Shown here: in pieces, positions 2,700 to 40,511 of the stretch
How positions within the stretch are numbered: position 1 is the stretch's first letter
How the letters are laid out: each line of letters opens with the position of its first letter
DNA from: Solirubrobacterales bacterium
GTDB taxonomy: Bacteria; Actinomycetota; Thermoleophilia; Solirubrobacterales; Solirubrobacteraceae
NCBI GenBank assembly: GCA_026392255.1
Contig: JAPLCJ010000017.1
Coordinates: 1-64,000 of the forward strand
Direction: 5' to 3'
DNA length: 64,000 nt
Program-made: the position numbers and the translations under genes
The notes under the pieces: generated by a model
What the model was told of the DNA's origin: nothing
Databases searched by the model: none
Seen by the model: the letters and a program-made list of their open reading frames with translations, nothing else

Positions 2700-3575
2700 T
2701 TAAGCGCCGAGAATCTCGGCGGCGATATCCGCGACTGCGGTAGGCGTGCGACCAACCCTCACGCCACAGGCCTCGAGCGCTTCAGCCTTGGCTGCAGCAG
2801 TGCCCTTCGAGCCCGAAACAATCGCCCCGGCGTGACCCATCTGCTTGCCGGGAGGTGCGGTGAAACCAGCGATGTAACCGATCACTGGCTTGGTCACGTG
2901 ATCGCGGATGTATTCGGCGGCCTGCTCTTCAGCATCGCCACCAATCTCGCCGCTCATCACGATCAGTTCAGTCTGTGGGTCATTCTCGAACAGTTCGAGA
3001 ATGTCGATGAAGTTTGAGCCCGGCACAGGATCGCCGCCAATCCCGACGATCGAAGAGTTGCCGAATCCGCGCTGGGCCAGCTCGTTACCGATTTGGTAGG
3101 TCAGCGTGCCGGAACGGGATACAACGCCAACCTGTCCTTCGCGGAAGAACGAAGCTGGAATGATGCCGACGTTTGCCTTGCCTGGGGAAAGGATGCCGGG
3201 GCAGTTGGGGCCGATCAGGCGGCTGCGACCGTTGGCCTTGATGTGGTTGTAAACGCGGAGCTCGTCGTGAGCGGGAATGCCCTCGGTGATAGCAATGATC
3301 AGCTCAATGCCAGCATCCTCAGCCTCAAGGATTGAGTCAGCAGCAAAGCGTGGTGGAACGAAGATCATTGCCGTGTTGGCGCCGGTCTCCTCAACTGCCT
3401 TGTGGAGCGTGTCAAAGACTGGAATGCCCTCAACGTTTTGACCACCCTTGCCGGGAGTCACACCGGCAACGACGTTGGTGCCGTAAGCCTGGTTGTTGAG
3501 AGTGTGGAAGGTGCCTTCGCGCCCGGTGATTCCCGAGACGACCAGCTTTGTGTCTGCTCCTACAAGAACGCTCAT
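2700..3575 (-). CDS. sucD: Succinyl-CoA synthetase (ADP/GDP-forming), alpha subunit
   Basis: Binds CoA and carries the phosphohistidine that relays phosphate between succinyl-phosphate and NDP in the TCA cycle. The 291 residues match the usual length. The N-terminal CoA-binding Rossmann fold shows [13 protein letters not shown], and the catalytic His is in [13 protein letters not shown] near residue 246. [12 protein letters not shown] and [11 protein letters not shown] are conserved subunit-contact segments. The start codon overlaps the sucC stop by 4 bp (ATGA), giving translational coupling of the two subunits. Confidence 0.97.
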
Positions 3576-4711
3576 CCGGCCAACTCCACAACCTTCTCGG
3601 CGGCCTCGAGCATCGTCGCGACCGTATGGACATTTGGCAGGGCTGCCTCGGCGAGAAGCTCGCGGCCAGCAACATCGTTTGTGCCATCAAGGCGGACCAC
3701 AAACGGAACCGTTGGGTTGATCGTCGCGAAAGCTTCGATCAGACCCTTGGCGACTTCGTCACAGCGGGTGATTCCACCGAAGATGTTGAACAGGACGGCA
3801 GTGACTTTGGAATCGGAGAGGATCACTTCGACTGCGGAGGTAATGGCCTCAGCCTTGCTTCCTCCTCCAGCGTCAAGGAAGTTGGCCGGCGCGCCGCCAG
3901 CTTGGGCGACAACGTCAAGGGTGCTCATTACGAGACCAGCACCGTTGCCAAGAATGCCAATGTTACCGTCGAGCTTGACGTAGGTAAGTCCTCGTTCCTT
4001 CGCCATCTTCTCCTGAGGATCCTCAGCTGAAGGGTCTGTCAGCTCAGCATTCTCAGGATGGCGGTAAAGAGCGTTGCCGTCGAGGGTGACCTTGGCATCA
4101 AGGGCCTTGATCGAACGATCGTTGGTGATGATCAACGGATTGACCTCAATCAGCAGCGCCTCTTCCTCAAGGTACGTCTCGTAAAGCTTGGCGAGCATGT
4201 CGCCGATCGGACGGATCACATCGGCATCAACGCCAGCGTCAAACGCGAGGCGGCGGCCGTGGAAGTCCTGGAAACCAAGCAGGGGGTCAACGTGAAGGTG
4301 GGCGATGGCGTCGGGGTCCTCATCAGCAACGGCCTCAATGTCCATGCCGCCCTTGGTTGAGAGCATCACGAGGGAAGACTTTGCTGAGCGGTCGAAGACG
4401 ATCGAGGCGTAGTACTCGGATGCAATGTCGGACGCCTCTTCGATCCACACCTCATGGACTGTCAAACCCTTGATGTCCATGCCAAGAATGTTGCCTGCGT
4501 GCTCCTCAACTTCTGCACGGTTGGCAGCAACCTTGATGCCACCAAGCTTGCCTCGGCCACCGATCTGAACCTGTGCTTTGACAACACATGGATATCCGAT
4601 CTCTTCTGCGGCTGCGACAGCCTCGTCGACCGTGGTGGCCGGCTTGCCCGACGGCACGGGAACCCCGTGACGGGCCAGGAGCTGCTTGCCTTGATATTCG
4701 AGAAGATCCAT
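3572..4711 (-). CDS. sucC: Succinyl-CoA synthetase, beta subunit
   Basis: ATP-grasp subunit that binds nucleotide and succinate and partners SucD. It is 379 residues, close to the family norm. The N-terminus [20 protein letters not shown] is typical, followed by the ATP-grasp domain ([16 protein letters not shown]) and the C-terminal flavodoxin-like half with [12 protein letters not shown] and [15 protein letters not shown]. It is the first gene of a minus-strand run of five. The 123 bp between its start and the divergent HAD gene at 4835 must hold promoters for both directions; I see no clear consensus hexamers there. Confidence 0.97.
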
Positions 4712-4834
4712 AAGGGGCGGGCCGAATTAACGGCGTTGGGTGACTCTATACGAGGCTTATGGATGTTTGCGTTGAGGCCCAATTCACGCTCGGATCCGGC
4801 CTGGGGGCCAACTTGCGGCATACTGGCCGTCGCG

Positions 4835-5512
4835 ATGGTAATTCCAAAGAAACCAACTTGGGTGACGCTTGACGTCTACGGAACACTGATCGACTGGGAA
4901 ACCGGCGTGATGAAAGCACTTGAAGAAGTGTCAGAAGGAAACGTCAAGTTTGACAAGGCTGAAGTGATGAGCCAGTTCAAGGAAATCCAGCACAAGATCG
5001 AGTCCGGCTCCTACGAGCTTTACGCCGAAGTACTGCGCCGCACGATCCTAGACATCGCCGACAACATCGGCTGGCGGCTGGAGTCATCACAGGCTGGCTT
5101 CCTCCCAACTTCAATCTCAAGCTGGAAGCCATTCTCTGAAACCAACCCTTCGATTAAGAAGCTCTCCAAAACCTTCAAGACCGGGTTGATCTCCAACATT
5201 GACGACAAGCTGCTCGGCGAAACCCGCCGTCACATCCCACTTGACTTTGACCTTGTTGTCACCGCGCAGCAGGTTCGCGCCTACAAGCCTGAGCCCGCTC
5301 ACTTCAAGGAGTTCGCCCGTCGCATCGGCGGCAAGAAGGGCTGGGTCCATATTTCATCCTCGTACCACACGGATGTTGAGCCTTGCTTGAAGATGAAGGT
5401 CCCCGTCATTTGGGTTAACCGAAACAAGGAGACCCTCGAGAAGGGTCAGAAGAAGCCTGACGCTGAGGTCAAGAACCTCCGTGAGGCCCTGAAGCTGCTC
5501 GGCGTCAGCTGA
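4835..5512 (+). CDS. HAD-superfamily hydrolase, haloacid dehalogenase type II-like
   Basis: A 225-residue HAD hydrolase. The open frame extends further upstream, but that part overlaps sucC antisense, so I start at the ATG at 4835. Motif I is LDVYGTLIDW with nucleophile Asp13. Motif II is GLISNIDD, motif III the Lys of AYKPEPAHF, and motif IV the acidic HTDVEP stretch. The DxYGT form of motif I and the helical cap are typical of L-2-haloacid dehalogenase-like proteins, but phosphatase activity on a small metabolite is equally possible. The gene is 19 bp upstream of the MBL-fold gene and probably co-transcribed with it. Confidence 0.85.
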   Translation: MVIPKKPTWVTLDVYGTLIDWETGVMKALEEVSEGNVKFDKAEVMSQFKEIQHKIESGSYELYAEVLRRTILDIADNIGWRLESSQAGFLPTSISSWKPFSETNPSIKKLSKTFKTGLISNIDDKLLGETRRHIPLDFDLVVTAQQVRAYKPEPAHFKEFARRIGGKKGWVHISSSYHTDVEPCLKMKVPVIWVNRNKETLEKGQKKPDAEVKNLREALKLLGVS

Positions 5513-5531
5513 GCAGACCGTCTGGGCTGCT

Positions 5532-6311
5532 GTGCGTGCGCTTGCCCTGCATGAAGATGTCCTGCTCCTAGAGAGCGGCATTTGGCATACCGCCGCCGTT
5601 GCTGTCCGCAGTGGGGACGAAGCGTTCCTGATCGACAGTCCGATCCTTCCGGAGGAGCTTGAGACTCTGCCATCACTGTTTGAGCAGGCGGGCTTCCCAA
5701 TCGTTGGTCTTGTGGCCACGCATGCCGACTGGGACCACCTGCTCGGCGGCCAGGCCTTCCCCGATGCACCACTCGCGGTCGCAGAGACAACTGCCGCCCG
5801 TCTGACAGCTGAGCCCGGCGCTGCAGCGCGCGACCTGAGGCAGTTCGACGACCAGTGGTACGTCAAGCGCGCCCGACCACTCTCAATGCCTGCCGCGGAA
5901 GCACTTCCCGTCCCTGGCCTATTGGAGATCGGCGAACAGGAGCTTGAACTCCACCCAACAGAAGGGCACACGGCCGACGGTATGGCGATCTTTGCGCGCT
6001 GGTGTGGAGTACTCGTCCTTGGTGACTACATCTCTCCTGTTGAGATCCCAATGATCTCCCCGGGCGGGTCAATCAGCGCTTACAAGGCAACCCTTGAACG
6101 CCTGCGAGAGCTTGTCGCCCAGGCCACGAGCATCGTGCCTGGGCACGGTGGGCTACTTGACCCAATCCGGGCCGATGCGTTGATCAACGAGGACCTCGCC
6201 TACCTCAGTGCCCTTGAAGCCGATGGCGCCAGTGCCCCCCTTCCCTTGGCTCGGACCACTCCGGAGCAGCGACGCATTCACGCCGAGAACGTCGAGCGTA
6301 GTCAGTCCTGA
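5532..6311 (+). CDS. Metallo-beta-lactamase fold hydrolase
   Basis: A 259-residue MBL-fold protein starting at GTG 5532. The metal motif is THADWDHLLGG: the central Asp-His pair and first His are kept, but the second His of HxHxDH is Asp. Further ligands are plausible in TEGHTADG (His about 137), VLGDYISP (Asp) and VPGHGG (His). The C-terminal helical tail is Ala/Glu rich. Substrate is unknown; relatives hydrolyse thioesters, lactones or phosphoesters. Its last 10 bases overlap the convergent GNAT gene. Confidence 0.85.
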   Translation: MRALALHEDVLLLESGIWHTAAVAVRSGDEAFLIDSPILPEELETLPSLFEQAGFPIVGLVATHADWDHLLGGQAFPDAPLAVAETTAARLTAEPGAAARDLRQFDDQWYVKRARPLSMPAAEALPVPGLLEIGEQELELHPTEGHTADGMAIFARWCGVLVLGDYISPVEIPMISPGGSISAYKATLERLRELVAQATSIVPGHGGLLDPIRADALINEDLAYLSALEADGASAPLPLARTTPEQRRIHAENVERSQS

Positions 6312-31488: not shown

Positions 31489-33147
31489 CTACTTGCCGTC
31501 GCCTACGCAGCCCGAGAGCGGCGTTGCTGCAACCTTGAACTTGCAACGTTCAATTGGCGTTCCGAAGCCAGTTGGCCATGCGGCCTGATCTGTCTTGTGG
31601 AGCCAGCGACCGTCGTGGTACCTGTTGTCGACGAAGTCGGCACCGCTTGGATCACGACCACCCATACCCGCGGCGCCCGAGGCGCTTGTGGCGTCGGTAA
31701 ACGTAAGCGCATCGAAGTACGACAGCGTCAGGCCGGAGTTCGCGAAGTTCGAGGCGACCGGGCAGGTTGCCCAGAACTTCGGAAGCGTCGGCTCACCGAT
31801 TGTCACGAGACTCGACTGGACTCCGCCGACGGTGTTGGCATTGCTGCCTGTGCCGCCGATGCAGTTGGCTGTGCCGTCGTTCGCGTAGAAGATGTCGCGA
31901 CCGTTCCGGTTTCTACCGAGGTTGCCGAACTGATTGCCGATGATCTTGTTCCACTTGAGGTTGAACGTGTTCTTCAGCGTGTTGCAGGCAACCGACGGCG
32001 TCACGCCGACCGGACAGACAGCCTTATAGCTGCTCGTGTCTGTCAGCAGAACGCTCGGGTTGAGCATGCCAACACCGAGCAGCTTATTGCCCCAGACGCG
32101 GTTGTTCTGGATCGTCGTCTTCTGCGATCCGAACAGCAGGATGCCGATTCCGGGCGGGTAGTCAGCTCCACCGAGAGAACCGTAGTTCACTGTGAATGGA
32201 GTCACCTGAAGGCGGTTGGTCTTGTTTGCGACCGCCGTCGACGAGCCATCGGCGTTTGTCCCAACGAAGTAGTTGAGGTTGTTGCCGTAGACGTCATTGT
32301 CAATAATGATGTTGTCAGACGGTGGCGGGAAGTCCTCCGAGAAAAGGAGGTTGGGAACAATCCCGATGCCGTTGTTGAACCACTTTGACTTGGTGATCGT
32401 GACGTACCTAGAGTTTGTGCCCGAGTAACCAAGCTCATTACCCCATGACTTAAGGCCAGTCAACGTTGTGCGGAGTGGCTTGGTCTGCGGTGGTGTCTCA
32501 CCAACGTAAAAGCCTGAGTCATTGTTGTAGTACGCCTCGGAGTTGGACATGGTTCCGCCGAACGAATTTCGGGCGAAGATGCCATACACACCACCGAATG
32601 AAGCAATCACGTTGTTCACAAGGTAGGTCTTCGTGCCGAACATGTTCTGCACGTTGACGATCCAAACGCCGTTGCCCTTGTAACGGGTAACTGTCAGGTT
32701 CTTGACTGTCACGCCAGCTACGCCGTTGATCAGGATTGCATCCTGATTGTCCGGTGCTGAGAGCGTGCTCAGGTCAATGATCGTTTCCCTAGCGTCCGAT
32801 GTCGAGCCTGTGATGGTCAGACCATCCCACTGATGTCCTTCGATGATTACCGGTTCACGCCAAGTTCCCTTGGTGATCGTGATCGTGTACTCGTACTTGT
32901 GCTTCCCGGTCTGCTTTGCAGCAGCGACTGCCGCGGCAAGAGTCGCGAAGCACGTGTGAGCGCTGAGCGCACTCGAGGTGCATGTCTTTGACGCCACAAG
33001 CTTCTTGACCTTCTTGGTTGGCTTGCTGATTGTTCCCGGGTTCTCCGGAAGTGGGTAACCGCCTGCGAAGGCGGTCGGTGCGGCGCTCATCGCCAGAGCC
33101 GTAACGGCTGCGACGACAACTGCCACACGGGTGCGTGTACGTGTCAT
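31489..33147 (-). CDS. Secreted right-handed parallel beta-helix protein
   Basis: About 552 residues from ATG 33147, with GGGGAGAGG as ribosome site. A Sec signal peptide (VAVVVAAVTALAMSAAPTAFA) spans residues 8-28. A Lys-rich stretch and CFATLAAAVAAAKQTG follow, then a periodic array of turns such as GVAGVTVKNLTVTRYKGNG, SNSEAYYNNDSGFYVGE, TITKSKWFNNGIG and NIIIDNDVYGNNLNYF that define PbH1-type coils up to about residue 400. The C-terminal part has four or more Cys (CPVGVTPSVAC, NCIGG, CPVAS, RCKF...GCVG), probably disulfides. Such helices bind or cleave polysaccharides or, as in NosD, serve copper-site maturation. It is 34 bp after the multicopper oxidase gene, so probably co-expressed with it. 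Confidence 0.88.
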   Translation of the reverse strand: MTRTRTRVAVVVAAVTALAMSAAPTAFAGGYPLPENPGTISKPTKKVKKLVASKTCTSSALSAHTCFATLAAAVAAAKQTGKHKYEYTITITKGTWREPVIIEGHQWDGLTITGSTSDARETIIDLSTLSAPDNQDAILINGVAGVTVKNLTVTRYKGNGVWIVNVQNMFGTKTYLVNNVIASFGGVYGIFARNSFGGTMSNSEAYYNNDSGFYVGETPPQTKPLRTTLTGLKSWGNELGYSGTNSRYVTITKSKWFNNGIGIVPNLLFSEDFPPPSDNIIIDNDVYGNNLNYFVGTNADGSSTAVANKTNRLQVTPFTVNYGSLGGADYPPGIGILLFGSQKTTIQNNRVWGNKLLGVGMLNPSVLLTDTSSYKAVCPVGVTPSVACNTLKNTFNLKWNKIIGNQFGNLGRNRNGRDIFYANDGTANCIGGTGSNANTVGGVQSSLVTIGEPTLPKFWATCPVASNFANSGLTLSYFDALTFTDATSASGAAGMGGRDPSGADFVDNRYHDGRWLHKTDQAAWPTGFGTPIERCKFKVAATPLSGCVGDGK

Positions 33148-33181
33148 ATGAATGGGTCCTCTCCCCTTAGCTGCTTTGTTT

Positions 33182-34285
33182 TTACTTCTCAACGAGATAC
33201 CAACCTGCCATACCGGCGTCCATGTGTGAAGAGACGTGGCAGTGATACAGGAAACGGCCCGGATTATCTTCCGTGTACCGAATCGATATGACCTCGCTCG
33301 GGCCGACTGCGGGGCTGTCAACAAACGCCCCTGCTTCGTCGGGCCAACGGTGGCCGTGTAGGTGCCAAGTGTGGAAGTCACTATTCATGCCAAGCACGTG
33401 GATTGCCACGGTCTGGCCAACCTTGGCGCGGATCGTCGGCGTGTTTCCAGCAAAAGCCCTGCCGTTAATGGCGTGCAACATGCTGGGCGTGCCGGTGATT
33501 GGCGGTGCAAGACTGTGGAGGTGAAGGCAGACTTCCCGGTCTGGCCTTGGTTTAGCAGGATCGCGAATGATGATTGCTCCGAACAGGCCGCGGGCTGAGT
33601 TCAGAACATGGTTTGGACCGTGGTCGTGGTACGGCCAAACGCCTTCGCTCTCTGGCAGGCACTCCCATGTGTAGGTGAACTCTTCGCCAGGCGCAATGAA
33701 CCCACCGGCGCGGGTGAAGTCGCCAAGATAGGTTCCGTCATAGTCAGGGGTGTAACGAACTCCATGCGGGTGCATTGTCACTGGCTGATTGAGCGTCATA
33801 TCGGCATTGCGGAAGTGCACGCGAAGAACATCACCCACGTCGGCTTGAAGTGTCGGACCTGGCATCTGTGCAACACCCGCGGTGGATGCGAAACCGGGGG
33901 TCATCAGCTGGTATACGAATGCGCGGAACTTCTTGTGGGCCTGCTTGCCGCCCATCCATGCATCCTTGCCGGTTGGGATTGGATCCCAAAGAACTGTGGT
34001 CGCTTGAATCCAGTACTCACGGACCTGACCGCCCGGGGCCGGATCGGGAGTGTCGAAGTCGTAGCGATCAACCGGGTCGAGGGTCGCGGCGGCTGCTTTG
34101 GCCTTGAACTTTGGACGCTTCAGGGAAGCTGCCGCAGCGTCAATGTTTTTCACATCGCGGCTTGAAAGGTTCGAGATGTCCTTAGCGCTGAGCGCACAGA
34201 ACAGGCCGGCGGCTCCAGCGCCGAGGCTGAGGAAGTCCCTGCGATCTACGCCCTTCAAATTCGTGTCATCTAACTTCTTGGTCAA
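33182..34285 (-). CDS. Exported two-domain multicopper oxidase (small-laccase type)
   Basis: I start at TTG 34285, with AGGGGGAGA upstream, giving 367 residues. A twin-arginine signal is at 15-30 (RRDFLSLGAGAAGL). All four HxH motifs of the trinuclear site are present: HPH 172-174, HDH 220-222, HLH 308-310, HCH 348-350. Type 1 copper ligands are His305, Cys349, His354 and Met359. With two cupredoxin domains and type 1 copper only in the second, this resembles small laccases such as Streptomyces SLAC, which oxidise phenols or metal ions and reduce oxygen to water. The divergent gene 154 bp away encodes a single cupredoxin that could pass it electrons. Confidence 0.93.
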   Translation of the reverse strand: MTKKLDDTNLKGVDRRDFLSLGAGAAGLFCALSAKDISNLSSRDVKNIDAAAASLKRPKFKAKAAAATLDPVDRYDFDTPDPAPGGQVREYWIQATTVLWDPIPTGKDAWMGGKQAHKKFRAFVYQLMTPGFASTAGVAQMPGPTLQADVGDVLRVHFRNADMTLNQPVTMHPHGVRYTPDYDGTYLGDFTRAGGFIAPGEEFTYTWECLPESEGVWPYHDHGPNHVLNSARGLFGAIIIRDPAKPRPDREVCLHLHSLAPPITGTPSMLHAINGRAFAGNTPTIRAKVGQTVAIHVLGMNSDFHTWHLHGHRWPDEAGAFVDSPAVGPSEVISIRYTEDNPGRFLYHCHVSSHMDAGMAGWYLVEK

Positions 34286-34439
34286 AGCTTGAGTCTCCCC
34301 CTCCCGTGGATTGACGCGTTGACAGCTAGCGCGGGAGAATAGGGCATCGGGGGTGTTGGTGCGGCGGTTGGCGCGTTGGGAGTAAAGGTTTCGCAAACAT
34401 GTGCAACGCGATCCTCTCGTCTTGTGTAGATTTGTCGGA

Positions 34440-34925
34440 ATGACTAAGACTCCGAAGGTAATCCTGTCCCTGCTCACCCTCGTTGCTGTTGCCGCACTTG
34501 CTCCTGGCTTTGCCAGCGCACGCAAAGGTTCAGCAGCTGTGACCCTGCCGACTACCACCATCTCCATGGGTGGCACAACCAACGACGGCTACTACTTCCC
34601 CGCAACGGTCACCAAGAAGCTTGGCAAGGCGCAGTTCGTCTTCAGCCTCGAGCCAGAAAGCGGACAGCACAATGTCTTCCTTCAACCATGGGGCAGCACT
34701 ACGACTAGCTCCAAGAAGAGCACGAAGGGCATCAGCTTCCCCAACATGCGCTCCCCGGTTGCAATCTCAAATAATGAGACATATTTCTGGCCGAGGACCA
34801 GCAGTGGAGCCGCTGCGCCTTGGAAGCCAAGCAAGAAGGGGACTTACTTCCTCTACTGCACCAAGCATCCTGGCTCTGGCGCCGACCACCTTGGCGGCAT
34901 GACCATGACGATCACCATCAACTAG
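34440..34925 (+). CDS. Secreted cupredoxin (plastocyanin/azurin-like blue copper protein)
   Basis: A 161-residue exported protein: signal peptide ILSLLTLVAVAALAPGFASA at about 8-27, then one cupredoxin domain. Probable type 1 ligands are His77 in SGQHNVFL and, near the C-terminus, Cys140 and His143 of YCTKHPG with Met154 in LGGMTM. The His-Met gap is ten residues instead of the usual four or so and contains an extra His150, so the loop is expanded. The start is ATG 34440. The gene is divergent from the multicopper oxidase and followed by a perfect 9-bp hairpin. An electron carrier for the oxidase is the natural guess, not proven. Confidence 0.85.
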   Translation: MTKTPKVILSLLTLVAVAALAPGFASARKGSAAVTLPTTTISMGGTTNDGYYFPATVTKKLGKAQFVFSLEPESGQHNVFLQPWGSTTTSSKKSTKGISFPNMRSPVAISNNETYFWPRTSSGAAAPWKPSKKGTYFLYCTKHPGSGADHLGGMTMTITIN

Positions 34926-36899: not shown

Positions 36900-38372
36900 G
36901 TGAATACTGCCCCAATAGACGCTGACCTAGCCGAGGGCCCCAAGGGGCGCGCCGGTTGGACCCTTGCGGTCGTGTCGATCGCCCTGTTCATGGTCACCCT
37001 CGACAACCTCATTGTCGGCGTTGCCCTTCCGAGTATCAGGGAGGATCTTGGCGGTGGGTTGGAAGCCCTCGAGTGGACGGTCAACGCATACACGCTTTCC
37101 TACGCTGTGCTGCTGATGCCCGCAGCTGCCTTGGGGGACCGCTTTGGGCGCAGAAAGATGTTCCTCGTCGGTCTCACAACATTCACAGGGGCAAGTCTGC
37201 TGGCTGCCCTCGCGCCGACCATCGATGCGCTCGTGGCAGCACGGGCACTCCAGGGTCTGGGCGCTGCGATTGTCACCCCGCTGACCCTCACCCTCTTGGC
37301 CGAAGCATTCCCGGGCGAGAAGCGCGGAATGGCATTGGGGATTTGGTCCGGTGTGACCGGTCTGGGCGTGGCGCTGGGGCCAGTAGTCGGTGGCGCTGTC
37401 ATCGAAGGTGCTGGCTCATGGCAGTGGATCTTTGGAATCAACATTCCGATTGGCATCGCGCTCGGGTGCCTCGCCATCTGGAAGCTGGTCGAAAGCCGCG
37501 GAGAATCCCGGCCGCTGGACCTGCCAGGAATTGTATTTGCCGGCCTTGGCCTGTTTGGCCTGACCTACGCCGTGGTCCGGGGCGAAACCCTCGGCTGGGG
37601 TTCGTTTGGGATCCTCGGGCCCGGCTTGGGAGGCATCACACTCATGCTGCTCTTCGTGCTTTGGGAGCGCCGTGCTCCGGAACCAATGCTGCCGATGCGC
37701 TTCTTTGAGTCAAGGGGCTTTGCCGCAACAAACGTCATCAGCTTTGCGATGTTCTTCGGTGTCTTCGGGTCAATCTTCTACCTGTCGCAGTTCTTCCAGA
37801 CCGGACAGGGCTACACGCCGTTTGAGTCAGGCGTTCGGACACTCCCATTCACAGCGATGCCAATCTTTGTAGCCCCGATCGCAGGCATCTTGAGTGACAA
37901 GATCGGCGCTAGGCCCCTGATGGCCACCGGTCTGGCAATGCAGGCAATCGCGATCAGCTGGCTGGCAGCTGTCTCCACGCCGACGGTCCCATACAGCGAC
38001 CTCCTAATCCCATTCGTTATCTGTGGCACGGGCATGTCACTGGTCTTCGCACCAGCAGCTAACGCGGTTTTGGCGAGTGTTCGCCAGCGCGAGAGTGGCC
38101 AGGCCTCAGGTGCGACCAACGCGATCCGCGAGGTTGGCGGTGTGATGGGTGTCAGCATGCTCGGCGTTCTGTTTGCTGCCAACGGCTCCTACGACAGCCC
38201 TCAGGCCTATACAGATGGCCTCGTGGCAGCCCTTCCTCTTGGATCTGCGGTGCTAGCGGTTGGTGCAGTCGCGGCACTGTTAGTGCCAAGTCTGAAGCAG
38301 ATGCGGGCTGAGGCCGAAGAGTTGGCCGCGGCGGACTTGGCCGAAGCCAAGCTCGCCGTCGAGACCGCCTAG
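36900..38372 (+). CDS. MFS transporter, DHA2 family (14 TM, EmrB/QacA type)
   Basis: A proton-coupled exporter of about 490 residues with fourteen predicted helices. Helix 1 has MVTLDNLIVGVALPSI, the DHA2 form of motif D1. Loop 2-3 is GDRFGRRKM (motif A), helix 5 carries GVTGLGVALGPVVGGAVI (antiporter motif C), and NIPIGI follows. I choose GTG 36900 as start because it precedes the acidic cytosolic N-terminus; an upstream ATG at 36837 would add 21 residues. Substrate is unknown, often drugs or metabolites. Its TAG stop shares CTAG with the convergent dehydrogenase gene. Confidence 0.92.
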   Translation: MNTAPIDADLAEGPKGRAGWTLAVVSIALFMVTLDNLIVGVALPSIREDLGGGLEALEWTVNAYTLSYAVLLMPAAALGDRFGRRKMFLVGLTTFTGASLLAALAPTIDALVAARALQGLGAAIVTPLTLTLLAEAFPGEKRGMALGIWSGVTGLGVALGPVVGGAVIEGAGSWQWIFGINIPIGIALGCLAIWKLVESRGESRPLDLPGIVFAGLGLFGLTYAVVRGETLGWGSFGILGPGLGGITLMLLFVLWERRAPEPMLPMRFFESRGFAATNVISFAMFFGVFGSIFYLSQFFQTGQGYTPFESGVRTLPFTAMPIFVAPIAGILSDKIGARPLMATGLAMQAIAISWLAAVSTPTVPYSDLLIPFVICGTGMSLVFAPAANAVLASVRQRESGQASGATNAIREVGGVMGVSMLGVLFAANGSYDSPQAYTDGLVAALPLGSAVLAVGAVAALLVPSLKQMRAEAEELAAADLAEAKLAVETA

Positions 38373-40441
38373 CCTCGGGTGTAGGTCGCCTTCAGCGTCG
38401 CAGCACGGTTCGGCATGGTGAAGGTCCGTACCGCCGCCTTAGAGCCGTCTGACCAAGACCTAAACCGCCAGCGGGCACTTCCCACCATCTTCGTTGTTGG
38501 AACACTCAAGCCGGCCTTCATTCCGACGGCGGTGGCCTTAGTTCCAAGTACTGCCTTGCCAGCCCAGCCAACCGTTTGACCGGCTATTGATGTGGAGAGT
38601 GTTAGGGACTGTGTCAGAGGGTGAATTGACACCCGTTTGTAGGCCGAGCGCCCCTGGGAGGTGGTGGCCCGCAGAATCAGGTCGTAGGAAGAGTCAGCGT
38701 CATGGTCAGTGGGGAGCGTCACGCTGCCGACGCGCCCCGTGAAGCTCGTGAGGAAATGGTCGTGTACTCCGTGATGAAGAATCAGGGTCCAGCTGGTGGC
38801 GCTGGCGGGAAGCGCGAGCCCGTCAAGGGTGGCACCACCGGAAAACCGCAGCAGCTGACCGCCACTTGACTGCGCGCCCTCAGCTGGGCTAGTGATGGTC
38901 ACCACGGGTGCGGTCATGCCCGCCGCAACGGGAACCACATCAGTGCCGGTCTCAGTCCCGTCACTGACGGTGACGCGAGCGTAATAGACGCCTGGAGTCG
39001 CATAGGTGTGGCTTGGCTGCTCTCCGGTGCCAGAGATTCCGTCACCGAAGTCCCAGGCGTAGGTCAGGTCGGTGGAATCAGCGTCGATCGCGTTGGCATC
39101 AAACGTTCCTGTCGAACCACTCGTCACAACAGTTGGCTTAGCCCACGGACGCTGGTTTGCTCCAGCAGGTTCCAGTACCCAGACCCGGCCCGGGTCAACC
39201 CCATGTGCGGTGAACCCGGCCTCAACCATTGCAATGCCACCGCCCGGAGCGGGCTCCATGTCCACCACCGACTGAAGGCCCGTAACCAGAGGGTCAACGC
39301 CGGCTGTCGGATTGCTCAAGTCAAACAGTCCGGCTGTCCCGCGGGCGTAATCGCCAACTACCAGCCGGCCGGCGAAGGGTCCCCACGTGCTCCCAAGGAC
39401 AGGCCCGGCCATAATTGCGGCGCCGCCACTCGCATGTGCATATTCGTAGACGGGGTCGGTCTGTGAACTGGCGCTGACCTTCTTACAAGCTGAAGTGTTT
39501 GCATACACGGCCTGAGGATGGGCCGCCTCGCGGCAGGGCCAGCCAAATGACTTACCGCCCGTTGCCACATCAAGCTCCTCGGTTGAGTCATAGCCAACGT
39601 CGCCAATTGCAATCCGGCCGTTGCCCAGAAGTGTGAAGCGGAACGGATTCCTGAGACCTTTGGCAAACACTTTGGTGCATGACCTAGTGAGGTCGGTCAC
39701 CGTTGGGCAGAACGGGTGGTTCCGCAGGCCCTTGCCAGCTCGGTCAATGTGGATGATGGCGCCGCTCAACACATTGGGGTCTAGGGCGCGCATGATCGTG
39801 GACGAAAGTGAGCCTGGCGTTACGCCATCACCGATACCAACCCAGAGGCTGCCATCCGGATCTGACCTGACTGTGCCAATGCTGTGGGAGGAGCCGTCAG
39901 ATGGCATGCAGTCATCCTTGACCCCCGGTGTTGGGCAGGCCTTTGAGCCCTTGCTGCCGAGAATTACCGTCTCGCCTGCTGCCAGTGTCGCGCCGGCTCC
40001 CACCTTGACGCGCGTCAGGCGGGCGGTCTTGGGGGACTCGGTCCGAGTTTGGTCCGGGTCATAGGTGTAAAGGAGGTATAGGTAGCCGTTGTGGACGAAG
40101 TCTGAGTCCGTCGCAATCCCGAGCAGTCCGCGGTCCACATGGGTTGCAACATGCCCTGAGATGTCAAACAAGACCCTTGCGGTCGGTGACTCGCCAGGAA
40201 GGACGACCTTGACTGTCCCCTGCTTTTCTGCGATGAACAGGCGCCCGTCTGGGGCCCACACGGCTCCAACTGGCGCGTTCAGACCACTAGCCACCGTGTG
40301 TGCCTCAAGGGTCTCTGGAAGGGTTGGGGATGGGTTTGATCCAGCGCTTGCGAACGCTGTCATCGCGAGGGCCGGGGCGAGGACGAGGCAGGCCACTAGT
40401 GGCATCCGCCACGCAAGGTGTTTCCTCCCAGTAACCCTCAT
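38369..40441 (-). CDS. Secreted PQQ-type glucose/sorbosone dehydrogenase with PKD domain
   Basis: About 690 residues from ATG 40441. A Sec signal is at 11-32 (MPLVACLVLAPALAMTAFASA). A six-bladed GSDH propeller spans about 45-430, with GLNAPVGAVWAPDGRLFIAEK, DRGLLGIATDSDFVHNGYLYLLYT, GLRNPFRF and IGDVGYDSTEELDV, where Aas-like enzymes bind PQQ and calcium. A PKD domain at about 445-525 (YAWDFGDGISGTGEQPSHTY) and a further Ig-like module follow, ending in a Trp-rich SARWRFRSWSDG repeat. It probably oxidises soluble aldoses extracellularly. No pqq synthesis genes are in the window, so the cofactor source is open. Confidence 0.9.
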   Translation of the reverse strand: MRVTGRKHLAWRMPLVACLVLAPALAMTAFASAGSNPSPTLPETLEAHTVASGLNAPVGAVWAPDGRLFIAEKQGTVKVVLPGESPTARVLFDISGHVATHVDRGLLGIATDSDFVHNGYLYLLYTYDPDQTRTESPKTARLTRVKVGAGATLAAGETVILGSKGSKACPTPGVKDDCMPSDGSSHSIGTVRSDPDGSLWVGIGDGVTPGSLSSTIMRALDPNVLSGAIIHIDRAGKGLRNHPFCPTVTDLTRSCTKVFAKGLRNPFRFTLLGNGRIAIGDVGYDSTEELDVATGGKSFGWPCREAAHPQAVYANTSACKKVSASSQTDPVYEYAHASGGAAIMAGPVLGSTWGPFAGRLVVGDYARGTAGLFDLSNPTAGVDPLVTGLQSVVDMEPAPGGGIAMVEAGFTAHGVDPGRVWVLEPAGANQRPWAKPTVVTSGSTGTFDANAIDADSTDLTYAWDFGDGISGTGEQPSHTYATPGVYYARVTVSDGTETGTDVVPVAAGMTAPVVTITSPAEGAQSSGGQLLRFSGGATLDGLALPASATSWTLILHHGVHDHFLTSFTGRVGSVTLPTDHDADSSYDLILRATTSQGRSAYKRVSIHPLTQSLTLSTSIAGQTVGWAGKAVLGTKATAVGMKAGLSVPTTKMVGSARWRFRSWSDGSKAAVRTFTMPNRAATLKATYTRG

Positions 40442-40511
40442 GGTTTCAGGGTAGTGGCGCGGGGCGATCGGCGCTCCGGTCGGGCCGCCGAGAGCCACTC
40501 AATACGACCAA

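Follow-up and report, generated by a model that had tools for sequence, protein, structure and literature searches.

Gene content and copper sites of the cassette

The 64,000-nucleotide stretch of Solirubrobacterales DNA analysed here (the window) comes from a 1.66-Mb actinobacterial assembly that is 93% complete, and it encodes three exported proteins side by side: a two-domain multicopper oxidase (MCO), a single cupredoxin (CUP) and a right-handed parallel beta-helix protein (BH) (Table 1). As far as can be read from their sequences, comparison with relatives shows a conserved exported unit with intact copper sites, in which BH and CUP are coupled by natural fusion. A preliminary description of the locus had noted an oxidase exported by twin-arginine translocation (Tat) with complete type 1 (T1) and trinuclear (T2/T3) ligands, a divergent, Sec-exported cupredoxin and a secreted beta-helix protein shortly downstream of the oxidase. 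The open reading frame (ORF), the RR motif and the conserved ligands bear out the first of these, the coordinates confirm the second, and coordinates, Pfam and an AlphaFold model agree on the third.

MCO has the features of a two-domain multicopper oxidase, that is, two cupredoxin domains only (Pfam Cu-oxidase_3, 82 bits, residues 141-245, and Cu-oxidase_2, 69 bits, residues 268-367) and a T1 site of the H-C-H-M type in domain 2. The T2/T3 ligands are eight His residues arranged in four HxH motifs, and all T1 and T2/T3 ligands are invariant in the 24 aligned oxidases. Within the Tat signal region, Cys30 (window 34196-34198) is also invariant in 24 of 24, yet it does not fit a lipobox. Small laccases (SLAC type) share with MCO the two cupredoxin domains, the T1 site in domain 2 and matching T2/T3 histidines, and they can be aligned with it over residues 132-368 (E about 1e-24). 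Unlike them, MCO has a ceruloplasmin-like N-terminal stretch (VREYWIQATTVLWDPIPTG), a Tat signal that contains the invariant Cys30, and CUP and BH as dedicated partners. The best summed match is to ceruloplasmin and coagulation factor V domains (E 1e-41), with which MCO shares the N-terminal strand of the domain pair; however, it has two domains and not six as in ceruloplasmin, and it is bacterial and Tat-exported.

In CUP, a Sec signal can be read that ends in FASA before RKG, and H77, C140 and H143 are invariant among the sequences of 23 relatives, 18 of which have Met at the axial position; M154 is the likely axial copper ligand. CUP alone had no Pfam match; a weak sequence match in the PDB (E 0.014) is of the plastocyanin type, and the AlphaFold model matches the plastocyanin fold with probability 1.00, although the low confidence of that model (predicted local distance difference test, pLDDT, 58) makes this match supporting evidence only. 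Predicted fold, His/Cys/His set and axial ligand together assign CUP to the blue, plastocyanin-like cupredoxins. One clade of relatives (L015, L020, L021, L024 and L026) has Asn, Tyr or a downstream Gln instead of the axial methionine, and an altered copper potential is expected from this loss.

BH carries a Sec-type signal peptide ending in APTAFA before GGYP and matches Pfam Beta_helix (PF13229) with 47 bits against a cut-off of 25.9. With 38 homologues as input, AlphaFold predicts that BH folds into a right-handed beta-helix (pLDDT 76 on average and above 90 in the core, predicted template modelling score 0.83). Foldseek finds alginate C5-epimerases and pectin-type lyases as the solved structures nearest to this model (AlgE4, E 1e-6); a PDB sequence search with BH gave no match. 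Among the 38 diverse homologues, Y188, D210, Y214, S242, T244, N245, N259, E271, N284, N289 and N290 are invariant, and the polar stretch that holds them (residues 188-290) is likely a binding face; its YIGQTPxQ motif in Solirubrobacterales is replaced by YIGQCxPC in other actinobacterial classes. No His or Met is conserved in the same 38 sequences, and the only conserved Cys pair, C429 and C462, is invariant and probably forms a disulfide.

Table 1. Positions of the cassette genes and associated features in the window
Feature	Position	Strand	Description
BH	31489-33147	minus	552 aa, ATG at 33147; Sec-exported right-handed parallel beta-helix (ORF, Pfam)
MCO	33182-34285	minus	367 aa, TTG start; Tat-exported two-domain multicopper oxidase
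CUP	34440-34925	plus	161 aa; Sec-exported single cupredoxin (H77, C140, H143, M154)
Gap, MCO stop to BH start	33148-33181	minus	34 bp, from sequence
MCO/CUP divergent intergenic region	34286-34439	no strand	154 bp, from sequence
Tat signal region of MCO	34181-34285	minus	DRRDFL = residues 14-19; RRxF in 24/24 homologues
Copper-ligand region of MCO	33209-33772	minus	T2/T3: H172/H174, H220/H222, H308/H310, H348/H350; T1: H305, C349, H354, M359 (H348-C349-H350 contiguous)
Conserved stretch of BH, residues 188-290	32278-32586	minus	YGxxA...DxGxYxG(E/Q)TPxQ...R...LGYSGTN.RYVTIT...NNGxGIVPN...SE...P...DN...NN
Terminator-like hairpin 3' of BH	31461-31436	minus	11-bp stem, then T-rich tail

Conservation and rearrangement in Thermoleophilia

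A scan for MCO in 84,980 species genomes yielded 24 loci, all of them from Solirubrobacterales, whose genes were called by codon usage, these being high-GC genomes. In every one of the 24, a BH homologue lies 3' of the oxidase gene on the same strand, and in 20 an exported cupredoxin of 100-135 aa is encoded directly after it. As for the remaining four, the cupredoxin is fused to the C-terminus of BH in L014 and divergent from the oxidase gene, as in the window, in L004, while L013 stops at a contig edge and L012 has no cupredoxin. The divergent CUP of the window is an unusual arrangement; in most relatives the gene is found downstream of BH. The suggestion that the three genes form one unit, which would have been undermined had BH and CUP been absent beside close homologues of the oxidase, is supported by these 24 relatives, where no such absence was found as a rule.

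Class-wide, profile searches of 249 Thermoleophilia genomes (E<1e-100 for the MCO clade, E<1e-50 for BH) detected MCO in 31 genomes, BH in 30 and both in 29, within 1.5 kb of each other; the associated Fisher P of about 2e-34 is to be read as a description and not as a strict probability, since the genomes are related. Among the 18 genomes with strong MCO matches (E<1e-160), BH is adjacent in all 18, with match ends 11-86 bp apart. Exceptions to the pairing are G238 and G240, which lie at contig ends, and G017, a true case of MCO with no adjacent BH; G142, a second species of the window's own genus, had neither gene in this search. The adjacency of MCO and BH is thus not due to chance. Two further observations concern single loci: BH is duplicated at L006:8127-11244, where the copies flank the cupredoxin gene (MCO-BH-CUP-BH), and two metagenome-assembled genomes labelled Bifidobacterium breve (L015 and L021) look mislabelled, since they have the cassette of Solirubrobacterales and group with this order.

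Could the trio simply be a plain broad-specificity small laccase with two neighbours kept by inherited synteny and no joint function? That two-domain laccases and ceruloplasmin domains are the nearest sequences to MCO would fit this, but the class-wide co-occurrence contradicts it, as do the fusions described below and the fact that gene order has changed while the trio stayed together, which synteny does not explain; we consider it highly improbable. The changed order is BH-CUP-MCO-CUP2, on one strand, present in one other family and in G210, and the oxidases of these loci form a clade of their own (support 100/99), which stands apart from the oxidases in MCO-BH-CUP order. Paralogues of MCO at a greater distance, some of them encoded in the same genomes, make up another clade with the orders CUP-CUP-MCO-CUP or MCO-CUP and no BH. 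Taken with the two BH-bearing orders, these sets indicate that a cupredoxin accompanies all of these oxidases and BH two groups of them. The related oxidases without BH (L060-L065 and L042) lie beside genes for cupredoxins, and upstream there is often one for a tandem cupredoxin of two domains (about 355 aa).

Known copper-resistance sets combine an exported MCO with a copper-binding protein, and the composition of the cassette matches them, so that it might instead be a copper-tolerance unit, in which MCO would oxidise Cu(I), CUP would buffer copper and BH would be a wall-associated accessory. However, neither a copper-responsive regulator nor a copper ATPase was seen to recur among the gene calls, in which no systematic search for them was made, and the recurrent neighbour is of another kind: about 15 of the 34 type I loci have a TetR-family regulator, absent in the window, encoded divergently just upstream of the oxidase (L005, L006, L007, L008, L010, L014, L017, L018, L022, L046, L049, L050, L051, L055 and L056). 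TetR proteins usually sense small organic ligands, so an organic substrate fits this neighbour better than copper stress does. Copper tolerance would also leave the fusion of CUP to BH unexplained, and we regard it as rather unlikely.

Fusions with the cupredoxin and relatives of the beta-helix protein

The fusions of BH to CUP in L014 and L056 belong to different genera, both of them in Solirubrobacterales, and in L056, where the fusion lies at 3497-5065, the cupredoxin match starts right after the BH match in a single open frame. The BH profile used (439 positions) left out the fused cupredoxin of L014, for which reason the finding is not circular. A phylum-wide BH search (346 genomes) showed that many families in other classes of actinobacteria have relatives, and 20 of their loci were fetched. 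In 12 of them (L066, L067, L069, L071, L073, L076-L080, L084 and L085) the cupredoxin is N-terminal to the helix in one frame, the reverse of the order above, and in another six a separate cupredoxin gene lies 57-206 bp upstream of BH. The fused protein of L067, for example, is encoded at 4397-5833. Pfam confirmed both the cupredoxin and the beta-helix domains in the fusions tested, and several of the fused proteins bear a C-terminal segment resembling a membrane anchor (PLDc_N). MCOs adjoin seven of the BH loci of these classes: a small-laccase-like one lies directly upstream in L066, L067 and L073, and one of another lineage is found in L079, L081, L084 and L085, the last having copper nitrite reductase as its best score, below the cut-off. 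Due to their long branches in the MCO tree, only the distance of these four, and not their placement, was used. BH and CUP seem to form a physical unit that recurs beside MCOs of different lineages and, being repeatedly fused in both orders, behave as one functional protein; judging by the fusions, CUP is tied more tightly to BH than to MCO. In L070, L072, L074, L075 and L083 of these classes, the gene next to BH on its 3' side codes for a DUF1996-like protein, an assignment that Pfam confirmed for L072.

A search of plasmid records gave few BH relatives. On a Novosphingobium plasmid (L090), BH is followed by a diheme cytochrome c of the SO2930 family, and on the Ruegeria pomeroyi megaplasmid (L091) it ends a run of genes for a c-type cytochrome, a cytochrome c peroxidase and a TPR protein. 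The partner of the BH family thus appears to be a one-electron carrier, namely a cupredoxin in Actinomycetota and c-type cytochromes in two alphaproteobacterial relatives, and a terminal reductase often appears alongside. This recalls the NCBIfam family TIGR03805 (beta_helix_1), whose partner is an SO2930-family diheme cytochrome: BH is related to it in sequence over most of the helix and is likewise paired with an exported one-electron carrier, but its partners are a cupredoxin and an MCO, and it scores below the curated cut-off (49.4 bits, with homologues up to 88.6, against 141.5), so by these scores it is a relative and not a member. Perhaps the BH family is itself an undescribed exported oxidoreductase or electron-delivering enzyme whose conserved polar stretch would oxidise a polymer and pass the electrons singly to a dedicated carrier and from there to MCO and O2, or to a peroxidase and H2O2, an idea that is possible, albeit doubtful. 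The carrier, equally tentatively, would be the fused or adjacent cupredoxin in Actinomycetota and the diheme cytochrome c in Proteobacteria.

The heme-protein partner also bears on a role in maturation. NosD, a beta-helix protein, takes part in the maturation of nitrous oxide reductase, and BH could by analogy be a copper-loading factor for MCO, with CUP as its copper carrier and the whole module maturing the oxidase. BH is, like NosD, an exported right-handed beta-helix encoded beside copper proteins, and its relative L067 matches Pfam NosD (E 2e-11). Nevertheless, the best homologue reaches only 44.8 bits with TIGR04247, whose cut-off is 300 (no match was reported for the window BH), BH has no conserved copper ligands, the 93% complete genome has no NosZ (TIGR04246) above the cut-off, and BH is missing beside related MCOs whose copper ligands are the same. 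The missing His and Met, the missing nosZ and the cytochrome-paired relative argue against loading of the NosD type, which is quite unlikely, and for a platform that binds substrate or delivers electrons and is connected through CUP to MCO and O2.

Around the cassette itself, the short gap between MCO and BH implies a single transcript, and the TTG start of MCO is preceded by the stretch GGAGGGGGAG. By Pfam, one flank holds BacA/UppP, a PHP-domain protein and an inositol monophosphatase, and the other a Tat-type PhoD phosphatase and an MFS transporter; an Rfam scan of the whole window found one tRNA and nothing else. A glucose/sorbosone dehydrogenase (GSDH)-type protein with a PKD domain is encoded at window 38369-40498, about 3.4 kb from CUP, and a GSDH-family gene (L041:6556-7791) is also close, 3' of an oxidase-cupredoxin pair.

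A proposed module for extracellular oxidation

Our proposal, held with middling confidence, is that the locus encodes an exported oxidation module in which the beta-helix protein, the cupredoxin and the two-domain MCO are kept as a unit and pass electrons in series. BH would serve as an extracellular platform for docking or for contact with the substrate, its conserved polar stretch probably engaging a polymer of polysaccharide-like kind; CUP, next to or on BH, would take electrons one at a time from the substrate being oxidised and bring them to the T1 site of MCO, whose trinuclear cluster would reduce O2 to water. Both the substrate and the mechanism are inferred here. The nearness of the BH fold to polysaccharide epimerases and lyases was counted in favour of a polymer-facing role, and of the two roles first suggested for BH, binding of a polymeric substrate is compatible with the modelled fold, while copper loading is disfavoured.

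Several points weigh against this proposal. The fold matches of BH are weak in their details, with modest TM-scores (0.36-0.51), and beta-helix proteins generally resemble one another; none of the lyase or epimerase families modelled in Pfam or NCBIfam matched BH, and no catalytic site was recognised in it. AlgE4 mannuronan C5-epimerase and the PL6/PL9-type lyases share the fold with BH, but identity is about 14% and their known catalytic motif is not recognised. No CUP is seen in two of 35 compact type I loci (truly absent in L012, at a contig end in L013), only two cytochrome-linked relatives of BH were seen, both alphaproteobacterial, and the plasmid-borne BH copies of Streptomyces, haloarchaea and Hymenobacter stand alone. 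In addition, the direction of electron flow and a complex of BH, CUP and MCO are predictions, and CUP and MCO might work in parallel and not one after the other.

The same fold neighbours, alginate epimerases and pectin-type lyases, would also suit a crosslinking of surface polymers, in which BH would hold a wall or capsule polysaccharide while MCO and CUP oxidised its phenolic or tyrosyl groups, thereby crosslinking the envelope. The predicted export signals of all three proteins and the anchor-like PLDc_N segment of some relatives from other classes agree with it; against it, there is no direct evidence, and we know of no phenolic polymer or acceptor protein in these bacteria, which leaves it fairly improbable.

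Returning to the proposed series module, small laccases have usually been studied as lone enzymes taking electrons straight from diffusible phenols, whereas here a two-domain oxidase comes with an electron carrier of its own and a beta-helix partner across one order of soil and freshwater actinobacteria. The parts are of known kinds, and their combination suggests an undescribed extracellular oxidation system; the preliminary description knew of no trio of this composition, and none was recognised in a library of 5.39 million open-access papers, as judged by title, abstract and counts of terms. The cassette offers a concrete way towards the natural substrate of two-domain oxidases from the environment and, likewise, towards a widespread, uncharacterised family of exported beta-helix proteins, whose natural fusions can be used for structural work.

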